Origin: a virus
DNA: 25,027 nt
Virus record (IMG/VR): IMGVR_UViG_3300042895_000135
Coordinates: 1 to 25,027 of that record
Direction: 5' to 3' (one strand)
Positions 12,645-18,337 of the stretch are shown piece after piece; positions within the stretch are counted from its first letter, which is position 1; every line of letters begins with the position of its first letter. Both the position numbers and the translations under genes were made by a program. Below the pieces are notes generated by a model, which saw only the letters and a list, made by a program, of their open reading frames with translations, did not search any database and had not been told where the DNA came from.

Positions 12645-13088
12645 CTAGTCCTGCGCGGTGGTCTGCACGTAGGTGTAGGTGACACGCACCTGACCAGCGG
12701 TAGGCTGGCCTACCGAGGTGACCGTAGCCACCACAGTGCCGTTCGTGCCGATGTTGTCCATGGCAGCAAGCTGGGCCGCAGTGTGCGTGGGATACACGCG
12801 CACGCCGGTCTTCGCATTGACGCCGCTGGCGTACGTCGTGGCCCCAGTGGAGGTGCCGACAGACACAGTCGCCGACGTCGCGCTGTTGTACTGGGTCAGC
12901 ACATCAACGACGATCTCGACGATCTGAGAGTTGTACGGCAGATACACGGTGGCGTTCTGCACAAGCGTAACATCGAAGTCGATCAGCACGGTCTGTGAAA
13001 GAACCGCGAAACCGATATTTGGGCCACCAGTGACGCCGGCGTTTTTGTCGCCGGAGGCAAGTGGGCCAGTCCAAGTCGTCTGAGACAT
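12645..13088 (-). CDS. Putative virion structural protein (147 aa)
   Basis: A 147-residue, Thr/Val-rich protein of mostly beta pattern (SQTVLIDFDVTLVQNATVYL, then VEIVVDVLTQYNSATSATVS). It has no signal, membrane or catalytic motif. In this position, between capsid and neck genes, such proteins are often head decoration or connector parts, but I do not recognise the family. GAAGGAA lies about nine bases before the ATG. It is the first structural gene after the endonuclease insertion. Confidence 0.65.
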   Translation of the reverse strand: MSQTTWTGPLASGDKNAGVTGGPNIGFAVLSQTVLIDFDVTLVQNATVYLPYNSQIVEIVVDVLTQYNSATSATVSVGTSTGATTYASGVNAKTGVRVYPTHTAAQLAAMDNIGTNGTVVATVTSVGQPTAGQVRVTYTYVQTTAQD

Positions 13089-13164
13089 ACGTGAGTTCCT
13101 TCGCGAAGAGGTGCTGCTATAGCGACGGCAGCTTTATCACGTCTCCGGGGCGTTGGCTAGATGC

Positions 13165-14715
13165 TCATGGGCGCCGCCATACCCACCGTTTTTTGCCGCA
13201 ATCGAACATGCGCTGCGCGCCCAAAAGGTACGTCATATCGCGCTCGCTGCGGCCGTCGGTGCTTGGGTCAAAGACCTCGGGGGACCGGAGATCGCGGATG
13301 CGCGCCGGTATCTTGCGGCGCTGCCACGCGGTCTTGGGCAGCAGTCCGGTTTTCGGGTGGTACACCTGATAGTCCGGCGCCGACGTCTCCTCTAACGCAA
13401 AGCCCAGTTGTTCGTACAGGCCGCCTGTGAAGTAGCGATTGTCCGAGAAGGACTTCACGGTCTCCGGGTCGCTATCGGCCACGAACGCGGAGAACAGCCG
13501 CGAGGCTCCGCCGGCCACTGACACGCGCGTGGCGTACCGGCTCAACGTCCACACGCGATCCGCGTGCGCCCCGCGATCATTGCCGCCGAAAGTGAACCGC
13601 ATGCAGGCCACCAGCTTGTCGCGGTGGTACAACCCGTACTGCTCGCCGAAGCCGCCGCCACCCTGCGGGTGGTATGCCTCAAAAAATTGCGCGGCCTCAA
13701 CGTGGCCGACACGCCGCAAGTCGCACTTGCGCGCCATGAGCCGCCCACGCCCCTTGCCGAGTGCGTTGCGCACCAACCGCTTTATGGCGTGCGGCCTGTC
13801 CAGCCACTCGCTCTCGTACACCGTCAGCAGCCGAATGCCCTGCGCCTCGCACGCCAGATGTTTGTCGAGGTGGCGAGTGCGATCCTTGCGCTCCTCCTCG
13901 ACGGAAGACGCCGCGTGCCAGTATTCTCCGCAGTATTCGATCGCCAGCGACGCCGAGGGCGCGTAGATGTCCAATTCCTTTGGCGCTATGGTGGCGCGAT
14001 CTCGCGTCCACGTCTCCGCGTAGATAGACACGAAGCGCAGCAGCGCGGCTTCGCCCTTGGATCGGTGGTGCGAGCACTCCGGACACCCGTGGGCGCGCTT
14101 GAGGTGATGCTCGGGCGTCTGGCTGAACAGCCCGTGCTTGGCACACCGGATGTCAATTTTGCTTTTGGCACCCGCGTATCTGACCTCGTCGTAGCCATAG
14201 ACGTCGCCATGCACCTCACGCGCGTCGCGGGCAAACTTCTCGGCAAAGTTGGCGAGCTTCGTGTCCGCCGTCTTGCGCGCCGCGCCGGCCACGTTGCTGC
14301 GGTGCCCGCGCTTGATGGCACCGCAAGTAGGGCAGCCCTTGCCCCCGGAAAGGTGATTGCCCGGCGCTACGTCAAAAGGTCCGTGCACCGGGCAGGTGAC
14401 GGTGAACTTTGTGGTGTTGTTCACGTAAACCGCGCGCTCGTAAGTGTAGAAGCCGTTGTGTCTCGCGCGAGCCGCCGCGAGGACATCGTCTGGCGACGAC
14501 CGCCGCTTTGACGCGCGCACCTCACCTCCGCACGAGGGGCAGCCCGCGCCGTCCTTGCGCAACTGCGCCGGATACTGGCTGAAGAGGCCATGCTCGTGGC
14601 AACGAATGCCAGAGATGCGCTGCAGGGCGCCGGTGTAGCGCGCGGCCGTGAAATCGTACCGTTCCCGCACTTGCGGGGGAAACTTGGCGATCACGTCGCC
14701 CAGTGTCAGTTGCAT
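13165..14715 (-). CDS. Free-standing homing-endonuclease-like protein (zinc modules + Vsr-like EDxHD nuclease)
   Basis: A 516-residue protein. Three zinc-binding modules lie at 39-62, 108-131 and 191-214, each with the pattern C-x2-H-G-x-F then H/Q-L-x(n)-G-C-P-x-C, likely DNA-recognition ribbons. Residues about 220-305 look like a Vsr-like EDxHD nuclease: Glu222 in KGEAALL, Asp249 in KELDIYAP, Glu260-Tyr261 and His267 in IEYCGEYWH, then DKHLACEAQGIRLLTVYESEW. The C-terminal part (about 338-516) has YGLYHRDKLVACMRF, SVAGGASRLF, SFSDNRYFTGGLYEQLGF and FDCGKKRWVW, an accessory domain seen in many phage endonucleases. I recall I-Bth0305I as a founding EDxHD case. AGGACA precedes the ATG. No intron or coding interruption is visible. 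Confidence 0.82.
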   Translation of the reverse strand: MQLTLGDVIAKFPPQVRERYDFTAARYTGALQRISGIRCHEHGLFSQYPAQLRKDGAGCPSCGGEVRASKRRSSPDDVLAAARARHNGFYTYERAVYVNNTTKFTVTCPVHGPFDVAPGNHLSGGKGCPTCGAIKRGHRSNVAGAARKTADTKLANFAEKFARDAREVHGDVYGYDEVRYAGAKSKIDIRCAKHGLFSQTPEHHLKRAHGCPECSHHRSKGEAALLRFVSIYAETWTRDRATIAPKELDIYAPSASLAIEYCGEYWHAASSVEEERKDRTRHLDKHLACEAQGIRLLTVYESEWLDRPHAIKRLVRNALGKGRGRLMARKCDLRRVGHVEAAQFFEAYHPQGGGGFGEQYGLYHRDKLVACMRFTFGGNDRGAHADRVWTLSRYATRVSVAGGASRLFSAFVADSDPETVKSFSDNRYFTGGLYEQLGFALEETSAPDYQVYHPKTGLLPKTAWQRRKIPARIRDLRSPEVFDPSTDGRSERDMTYLLGAQRMFDCGKKRWVWRRP

Positions 14716-14747
14716 TTTGTGTCCTGTCCAGCCGTTGCAGAGTTTGT

Positions 14748-14776
14748 ATCATACAAAGCCGGTGTCGGAATGGCAA
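14748..14776 (-). promoter_or_regulatory. Near-consensus sigma70 promoter for the endonuclease gene
   Basis: On the minus strand TTGCCA (-35, 14776-14771) and TATGAT (-10, 14753-14748) are separated by exactly 17 bases; each hexamer differs from consensus at one base. Transcription would start near 14741, giving a leader of about 26 bases with AGGACA before the ATG at 14715. The -10 lies inside the 7+7 palindrome tttgtat-c-atacaaa (14743-14757), which could be an operator. Confidence 0.75.
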
Positions 14777-14782
14777 TAGCAC

Positions 14783-14817
14783 AAAGAAAAACGGCCCCCA
14801 GATTTCTCTGGGAGCCG
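14783..14817 (-). terminator. Rho-independent terminator after the major capsid gene
   Basis: On the minus strand an 11-bp stem (cggctcccaga / tctgggggccg, one G-U pair) with a four-base loop is followed by TTTTTCTTT. It lies about 30 bases after the capsid stop codon and is the only textbook terminator in the window. Confidence 0.9.
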
Positions 14818-14846
14818 CTCTTTTCCGTTGTATTTGAGTAGTTTAC

Positions 14847-15761
14847 TCAGATACCCGGCGTCCCGTAAACCCCGCGCGGATCCGTCCAACCGAACGCGTA
14901 ACGCTCGGTGGCTTTGTAGCGCATGCTGTCCGTCTCGAAGTCGCCTTCCATTGACTTCTCGAGGCTGCGACGCATTGCGAGCTTGAGACCCTCGGGCGCA
15001 TCAGTCTGTACCCACCATGCGGTGGTCGAGGTGATACGCGAGAGGTTGGCCTGACCGCCATCCAGCAAACCCATTGATTTGACTGGATTAATATCATTGT
15101 TCGCGGTGCCGGCACGCAGAACAGACTTGAGGAGGACCTCGGCCTGAAACACGTTGCTCGGTCCAACGACCAACTTCTTCGGCGTCAAGCGGATGCGCTT
15201 GCCGTTGTTGTCGACGGCGTTGCGGATCTGCACCAGCAGCTGCTCAAGCGAGGTCTGCGACAGGTTTGCGGCCGTCGAGAGCTTGTTTGAGAAGGTGCCG
15301 TTGGCGATCGGGTGATCCGTGGCAACCAGTTCCTTGCCGTCGCCGCCCGGATAGGCTGCGGTGAACGAGCGGTTCAGGATGTTGGCGCCAAGGGTCTCTT
15401 TGGTTTCGATCAGCGACTGCGCGAGGTGACGCGCGTAGGTCTGACCGATGCGGATGTGATCGCCATCCTCAACAAGAACCTTGGTCAGCGCGAAAGCGAG
15501 ACCGTAGACCTTGTAGACGTAACGCTGGATGAACAGCACGCCACCCGACTGGTAGGTGACGGGCATGCCGTCCGGCAGTTCCGGTGCGGCGCCGAAGCCG
15601 TACAGGACTGGCTCTTCGTGGTAGTTCCGGGGGATGCCCTTGAACTCTTTGAAGACTTGCGACCATTCGTCTGCACGCTGGTCGTAGATGCCGTTGAACT
15701 CTTCATTAAGAATAGGCTCAACGATGGAGCGGAAGTCAGTACTCCGCATTGGCATAGCCAT
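14847..15761 (-). CDS. Major capsid protein (HK97-fold expected)
   Basis: A 304-residue protein in the classic place after scaffold and a decoration-like gene. Motifs resemble capsid proteins of the Mu gpT-like/HK97-fold group: VYGLAFALTKVLVEDGDHIR, then ESLIETKETLG-type helix (SLIETKETLGANILNRSF), KELVATDHPIANGTFSNKL, LTPKKLVVGPSNVFQAEVLL and ITSTTAWWVQTDAPEGLKL. No protease domain is fused and none is seen nearby. AGGAGG nine bases before the ATG predicts high expression, and the terminator just downstream favours an abundant transcript end here. Function: icosahedral shell subunit. Confidence 0.88.
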   Translation of the reverse strand: MAMPMRSTDFRSIVEPILNEEFNGIYDQRADEWSQVFKEFKGIPRNYHEEPVLYGFGAAPELPDGMPVTYQSGGVLFIQRYVYKVYGLAFALTKVLVEDGDHIRIGQTYARHLAQSLIETKETLGANILNRSFTAAYPGGDGKELVATDHPIANGTFSNKLSTAANLSQTSLEQLLVQIRNAVDNNGKRIRLTPKKLVVGPSNVFQAEVLLKSVLRAGTANNDINPVKSMGLLDGGQANLSRITSTTAWWVQTDAPEGLKLAMRRSLEKSMEGDFETDSMRYKATERYAFGWTDPRGVYGTPGI

Positions 15762-17905: not shown

Positions 17906-18337
17906 TTAAACAAACGCCTTCACCGTCAGCGGATCACCCGGCACTGCGCCGAGTAAGTCGAGATCGTTGAACAGCACGAACAGCACTTCATCTTCGTTGT
18001 TTGGACCGTGCTTAACTGTCCACTTGTCGCCGCCGTACTTTGGCGTGCGAACGAAGTCTCCCGGCGCGGCCCACGAACCCTCAGGCCACGCTTCCTGTGT
18101 GTTGCGGTTTTTGAACGCGAGGCTGCCCACGGAGATGACCTTGGCCACCTGCGTGTTCCACTGCTCGGTATCCCGAGCATCCTGCGTCAGGATGATGCCG
18201 CCGGCCGTCTTGCGCTTGGCAGAGCGGATCTGCACCAGCACGCGGCTGCCGAACGGCACGAAGTTGGGGTCGACAGACGGGAACGCCTCGTCGAGGTTAC
18301 TGTACGCAAACGATACTTGGTTGATGATGTCAGACAT
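17906..18337 (-). CDS. GroES-like co-chaperonin (Cpn10 family)
   Basis: A 143-residue protein with a Cpn10 pattern: FGSRVLVQIRSAKRKTAGGI (29-48), the IIL triad of the mobile loop (48-50), VAKVISVGSLAF (64-75), then GDFVRTPKYGGDKWTV (93-108) and a C-terminal strand. Cellular GroES is about 97 residues; this one has an N-terminal extension (1-26) and an inserted loop (about 72-92). The mobile loop binds GroEL, so the protein would cap the host chaperonin to fold virion proteins, as T4 gp31 does for its capsid protein. Being set between portal and scaffold genes supports a link to capsid assembly. GGAG lies before the ATG. Capsid as substrate is inference. Confidence 0.85.
   Translation of the reverse strand: MSDIINQVSFAYSNLDEAFPSVDPNFVPFGSRVLVQIRSAKRKTAGGIILTQDARDTEQWNTQVAKVISVGSLAFKNRNTQEAWPEGSWAAPGDFVRTPKYGGDKWTVKHGPNNEDEVLFVLFNDLDLLGAVPGDPLTVKAFV

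Follow-up and report, generated by a model that had tools for sequence, protein, structure and literature searches.

In phage T4, the endonuclease gene segD is flanked by gene 23, the major capsid gene, and gene 24, and promoters for downstream genes are embedded in endonuclease genes, as described with mobE, segD and segG (PMC2988022). The same source places a terminator within mobE and a promoter between mobE and nrdB, and describes mobE as promoter-less and segD as antisense. I-TevI represses its own expression through an operator that overlaps the endonuclease promoter and resembles the homing site (PMC2988022). According to Sandegren 2005, as relayed in PMC2988022, Hef of T4-related phages replaces the unrelated endonuclease mobE at the same site. 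Two further systems bear on the present case. F-CphI is a homing endonuclease with an Endo VII motif (PMC6083498), and Mom-REase fusions in jumbo phages have been read as modification-restriction systems (PMC7824862).

Here we consider an endonuclease gene that follows the major capsid gene in IMG/VR virus record IMGVR_UViG_3300042895_000135 (positions 1 to 25,027; this whole stretch of 25,027 nucleotides is called the window). The minus strand is the coding side for the capsid gene, the terminator, promoter and palindrome, the endonuclease gene and a 147-aa gene (Table 1). We suggest, with a probability of roughly four in five, that a mobile, free-standing homing-endonuclease cassette occupies positions 14846 to about 13165, where it separates the capsid gene from the gene that follows in the structural operon and carries signals for stop, start and restart.

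Results

Table 1. Features of the capsid junction in the window
Feature	Position	Strand	Basis or remark
Major capsid protein gene, 304 aa	14847..15761	-	Pfam Phage_capsid_4 2.9e-12; PHROG major head proteins
Intrinsic terminator (stem 14787-14822, T-rich tail 14782-14786)	14782..14822	-	Sequence scan, folding energy
-35 hexamer TTGCCA	14771..14776	-	Sequence; position in homologous leaders
-10 hexamer TATGAT	14748..14753	-	Predicted start site near 14741
25-bp interrupted dyad, candidate operator	14738..14762	-	Centre on -10; core 14743-14757 TTTGTATgATACAAA
Shine-Dalgarno AGGA of endonuclease gene	14722..14725	-	Sequence
Predicted Hef-like free-standing homing endonuclease gene, 516 aa	13165..14715	-	PHROG, Pfam, models, fold searches
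Block common to window and L004 Endo VII cassette	13137..13164	-	25/28 bases identical to L004
Exit-promoter candidate TAGCCA-17-TAAAGC, for downstream gene	13131..13159	-	Weak in window, stronger in homologues
Short hairpin CCTcTTCGCGAAGG	13098..13111	-	3' arm carries Shine-Dalgarno of the 147-aa gene; sequence
147-aa gene (d147), function without assignment	12645..13088	-	3' neighbour of cassette; no family match

The state of the junction was compared among capsid relatives in IMG/VR. When it is empty (L006-L008, L011, L013 and others), the 147-aa gene directly follows the capsid gene, about 50 nt from its stop codon; the capsids of L006-L008 and of other empty close relatives are 97% identical to that of the window. 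Empty junctions have a GC hairpin and hardly ever a T-run. A Hef-like gene is present at 25 distinct capsid-linked loci, including the window and Caulobacter phage GB2A, where the label Hef-like reflects PHROG families and behaviour rather than comparison with the Hef sequence of phage U5 and its kin. Endo VII-like genes with zinc fingers are found at the junction in L004, L009, L010, L025-L027, L034, L045, L048 and L062, and GIY-YIG genes in L039, L043, L050, L056 and L065. The isolated Caulobacter phages RW, KcrB, RLK and GB2A carry a related gene in the same location. Three unrelated nuclease families thus use one site, at which close relatives have both filled and empty alleles, and given that relatives are either empty or filled by unrelated nuclease genes, the junction is a much-used landing place for mobile genes. 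The original prediction took the gene for a homing endonuclease that had invaded between structural genes, and the 50-nt gaps beside nearly identical capsids are the empty sites that it anticipated. It also named neck genes as the 3' neighbours, a part that finds no support: the 147-aa gene has no significant match in Pfam or PHROG, and no convincing family was found for the genes after the capsid in relatives. The head-gene cluster of the window also includes a Cpn10/GroES-like gene (17906-18337, minus strand; Pfam 6.4e-9), which is annotated in Caulobacter phage RW as well.

The nearest relative of the window, L004, has an unrelated Endo VII nuclease at precisely the same place. DNA identity between the two is 93% up to the capsid stop and 91.8% from 13165 on, and the intervening segment alone differs. 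The left boundary of the swapped segment is the capsid stop codon, with a blastn breakpoint at 14849 against both L004 and L007, and the right boundary against L004 is 13165. This is an exact exchange of one nuclease cassette for another. The block shared next to the right boundary forms the last codons of the Endo VII gene in L004; in the window it reads HLANAPET* out of context, and it contains the -35 of the exit-promoter candidate. Hairpins similar to the one at 13098..13111 are found in L004, L089 and L111. As read from the alignments, the boundaries agree with transfer plus co-conversion.

In a tree of 77 capsid rows, the junction state changes at least 22 times and sister rows occur in different states. 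Close rows that are unlike include the window (Hef-like), L004 (Endo VII) and L007 (empty); L026 (Endo VII) and L028 (empty); and L093 (Hef-like), L045 (Endo VII) and L041 (empty). Decayed copies occur too: in L046 the Endo VII gene after the capsid gene is down to its two ends, and in L111 a stop codon lies within the Hef-like frame. The identities of Hef-like proteins and capsids correlate (r=0.71), so that vertical descent accounts for a large part of the history in this capsid lineage. Presence and absence, exact allelic replacement and repeated turnover of this intronless cassette are seen directly in the comparisons, and the reading of it as mobile is supported. A separate observation concerns L041, which has no endonuclease at 25-110 nt past the capsid stop; it has a terminator resembling that of the L093 Hef-like cassette and the same 3' flank, which looks like the loss of a cassette that left its terminator behind.

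The endonuclease frame is open for 516 codons, and the full-length protein matches homing-endonuclease families (phrog_559, 1.5e-97; phrog_3339, homing endonuclease, 5e-69) and 1254 phage records, annotated homologues among them. Members of the family are found beside other virion genes elsewhere, for instance in Xanthomonas phage MK21 (tape-measure gene) and Vi II-E1 (tail genes). Treble-clef/CapR repeats (residues ~1-215; Pfam DUF723 twice, CapR) are followed by an EDxHD/Vsr-like nuclease (~216-325) and a Mom-like GNAT domain (329-516), and the AlphaFold model (pLDDT 87.5) consists of small repeated N-terminal modules, the nuclease and the GNAT domain. When the nuclease domain was modelled alone, Foldseek ranked the EDxHD homing endonuclease I-Bth0305I first (E 1.7e-3) and Vsr not far below it; VIA gave Z 10.5-11.6 for these fold matches, and the modelled catalytic domain has a Vsr/REase-like fold. 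A phmmer search of the PDB with the endonuclease gave no match, a profile search of the PDB just a weak match to 3r3p and spurious Pumilio repeats, and PADLOC and NCBIfam no match for it. Among 29 homologues 32 positions are invariant; they include E222, D249, E260, H267, H282 and K285, which in the sequence alignment are candidates for the E..D..xHD catalytic residues, and D425, R427 and Y434 in the GNAT domain. For residues 329-516, which are modelled with a GNAT fold, Mu Mom ranks first in Foldseek (E 1.6e-5); its VIA Z of 13.0 is equalled or exceeded by many other GNATs. The protein also has a Mom-type motif, SFSDNR-G-Y-F (SFSDNR...GxxY...F), where Mom has SFADER-G-Y-F. Based on these matches and models, the gene is predicted to encode a Hef-like, free-standing homing endonuclease of the EDxHD/Vsr fold with a C-terminal Mom-like GNAT domain, which agrees with its first description as homing-endonuclease-like.

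The likeness to Mom in fold and motif could also indicate a single-chain modification-restriction weapon, in which phage adenines would be modified by the GNAT domain and host or rival DNA lacking the modification would be destroyed by the nuclease; the junction would simply tolerate an accessory gene. A system of this sort has been predicted for the Mom-REase fusions of jumbo phages (PMC7824862), and the invariant D425, R427 and Y434 suggest that the GNAT domain may be active. However, to be exchanged exactly, allele for allele, with Endo VII and GIY-YIG nucleases at a single junction is how homing genes behave, and homologues adjoin tape-measure and tail genes elsewhere, and we consider the weapon improbable. 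It is compatible with homing, and the two are not exclusive.

Between the capsid gene and the predicted homing endonuclease, a 16-pair stem (14822-14787) precedes a T-rich tail, with a folding energy of about -27 kcal/mol; it is the longest stem among terminator-like sites in the 19 kb scanned. The promoter begins 6-7 bases beyond the T-run (TTGCCA, 17 bp, TATGAT; 14776-14748) and scores 10/12. Both signals had been predicted, the promoter about 7 bases past the terminator; the terminator is real and strong, and its stem spans 14787-14822, not 14783-14817. The promoter had also been thought to have no equal elsewhere, which does not hold, as GTGACA-17-TATGAT at 17060-17032 (minus strand), inside an open frame, scores the same 10/12. 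Given that the score recurs and that chance would produce about 2.6 sites of at least 9/12 in the 19 kb scanned, the motif is weak evidence by itself, and it falls to comparison with relatives to decide. The best promoter scores at least 9/12 in 9 of the 25 Hef-like leaders (1.3 expected) and in most cases lies a few bases beyond the T-run, 62-71 nt from the capsid stop, so that its position is nearly fixed. No promoter scored in the empty d147 gaps, and the leaders of L094, L095 and L111 have no clear one. It is this positional conservation across homologues that argues for a real promoter, and for the proposal that the endonuclease has its own. The early host-sigma70 expression also entertained in the original prediction is conjecture, as is a repressor acting here.

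A terminator lies ahead of 24 of the 25 Hef-like genes. Empty sites of the d147 sublineage have none, except for a borderline one in L014 and a match in L007 inside the next gene. Other sublineages have terminators after the capsid gene without any endonuclease (13/18 in dAST, 9/9 in dTQF), and L066 has both a terminator and a promoter (TTGACG..TAAACT) without one; the terminator is therefore not a cassette-only part everywhere. The description of the cassette as self-contained suits the d147 sublineage, in which hardly any empty site has these signals, and does not extend to the terminator in the others.

Signals are also found on the far side of the gene. GTGCTA, the core of an extended -10, follows 10 of 25 Hef-like and 6 of 10 Endo VII cassettes (background 0.12 per kb). 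Of 43 empty gaps a single one has it, namely L046, the Endo VII deletion. From this distribution, an exit promoter likely follows many cassettes; the candidate in the window is weak (6/12).

These signals bear on the possibility that the promoter belongs to the structural operon, with the terminator limiting capsid read-through, the promoter restarting the downstream genes and the endonuclease as a passenger. The terminators without endonuclease in dAST and dTQF, and the arrangement in L066, are what such an operon would have. However, the d147 empty sites have no promoter and, apart from L014 and L007, no terminator; promoters lie close to the endonuclease start, and a separate motif, GTGCTA, comes after the gene. 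We regard an operon promoter as quite improbable.

The Endo VII leaders are built differently (L004:3467-3560; L010, L025-L027, L034, L045 and L048). The 3' arm of the terminator hairpin holds the endonuclease Shine-Dalgarno, the start codon comes right after the T-run, and a promoter-like sequence (TTGxxx-17-TAGGxT) reaches into the hairpin. Transcripts starting there would therefore lack the 5' arm, a logic known from T4 I-TevI. We do not claim this promoter, which has a poor -10 and overlaps the stem.

In the Hef-like leader of the window, the palindrome predicted to overlap the -10 is present (7+1+7, TTTGTATgATACAAA, 14743-14757) and is part of a 25-bp dyad, CTGANTTTGTATNATACAAANTCAG, which is centred on the -10 and common to nine leaders including the window. 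The window dyad alone has p=0.018. Across the nine leaders, 83% of cells pair, compared with 78% in shuffled sequences (0/500) and 21-41% in slid controls, and the halves covary, with five pairs changed on both sides (3/500 shuffles) and a covariation of 0.243 vs 0.178 shuffled (2/500); given that the nine rows are related, these shuffle tests overstate the certainty. The dyad is missing in the deeper homologues L097 and L105-L107, and operator-like similarity of the promoter region to the empty target is no better than shuffled. We suspect that the dyad is a candidate operator. That promoter and palindrome are chance, with the endonuclease made from capsid read-through, would fit a promoter score within the shuffled expectation for 19 kb, but is very improbable in view of the covarying dyad and of promoters that are enriched, at a fixed position, among the 25 leaders.

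A different element was observed in many relatives directly upstream of the gene after the capsid, the protein of which starts MASTTFSGP or similar. It is a pseudoknot leader RNA (L041:6026-6095, L093:5587-5656, L080:5970-6047 and about 40 further loci), in which a short P2 lies within P1 (9-10 pairs), together with a strand that forms a helix with the sequence immediately ahead of the Shine-Dalgarno. Across 37 sequences, pairing is found in 87% of cells vs 67% after shuffling; both sides have changed in 17 of the 20 pairs, and covariation is 0.582 vs 0.220 (0/500 shuffles). With a covariance model, 100 sources yielded 45 matches, almost always a single one at each locus, and the window had none. 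The leader has no match in Rfam 15, and Rfam at the gathering threshold has no match in the window or 12 relatives. Two exact-core scans of viral contigs found the leader in more than 200 contigs; among the matches listed, a relative of this capsid lies no more than 3.5 kb upstream at 229 of 240 loci, and ten more are too short to tell. Given that it is present with and without endonuclease genes, the leader belongs to the downstream gene. It is likely a cis-acting translation control element, similar in style to the T4 gene 32 pseudoknot.

Discussion

We propose that, in a mixed infection, the nuclease would cut a cassette-free allele at or near the capsid junction, and that repair of the break would copy in the cassette with some flank. 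The terminator would halt capsid read-through, the adjacent promoter would start the endonuclease mRNA and the promoter after the gene would restart the downstream operon, uses suggested by the conservation of these signals. With such stop, start and restart signals, insertion would cost little. A dimeric protein may keep expression low by binding to the dyad that covers the -10; this protein could be the endonuclease itself, through its CapR-type DNA-binding repeats, and the cassette is possibly autorepressed.

A more tentative idea, which we think unlikely, is that the protein, by combining a homing nuclease with a Mom-like domain that modifies DNA, makes a self-immunising homing element of the cassette, one that would cut rivals at the capsid junction and chemically protect its own genome. 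If true, it would unify homing endonucleases with the Mom-REase fusions that have so far been read as restriction systems.

What matters here is that three unrelated nuclease families trade places, within exact boundaries, at an essential junction right after a capsid gene. The locus also displays the insulation of such parasites: a stop before, a start within and a restart after. With phages RW, KcrB, RLK and GB2A, which have a related gene at this place, laboratory tests become possible for homing, for its control and for what the Mom-like domain does.

I-Bth0305I (3R3P) is the best structural match to the nuclease domain, at an identity of only about 20%. It is treated as an intron-type endonuclease (its PDB name is 'mobile intron protein'), whereas the window gene is free-standing and has a Mom-like domain, none being established for I-Bth0305I. 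Mu Mom shares the fold and short motif of the C-terminal domain, but is a stand-alone modification enzyme without a nuclease. F-CphI offers a precedent for the Endo VII cassettes of L004, L010 and others, and is of a different nuclease family from the window gene. As in I-TevI, the candidate dyad lies over the promoter, although no likeness of operator to homing site was found here. Hef of T4-related phages, in the relayed account, is similarly free-standing and replaces an unrelated endonuclease at one site; the window cassette differs in following a capsid gene, in Caulobacter-type phages. The terminator and downstream promoter at the endonuclease gene, and its location after a capsid gene, recall mobE, segD and segG of T4; compared with mobE and segD, the window endonuclease has its own predicted promoter directly after the terminator. 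The kind of element is thus already known from T4 seg, mob and Hef genes, and the window cassette is a well-insulated variant of it.
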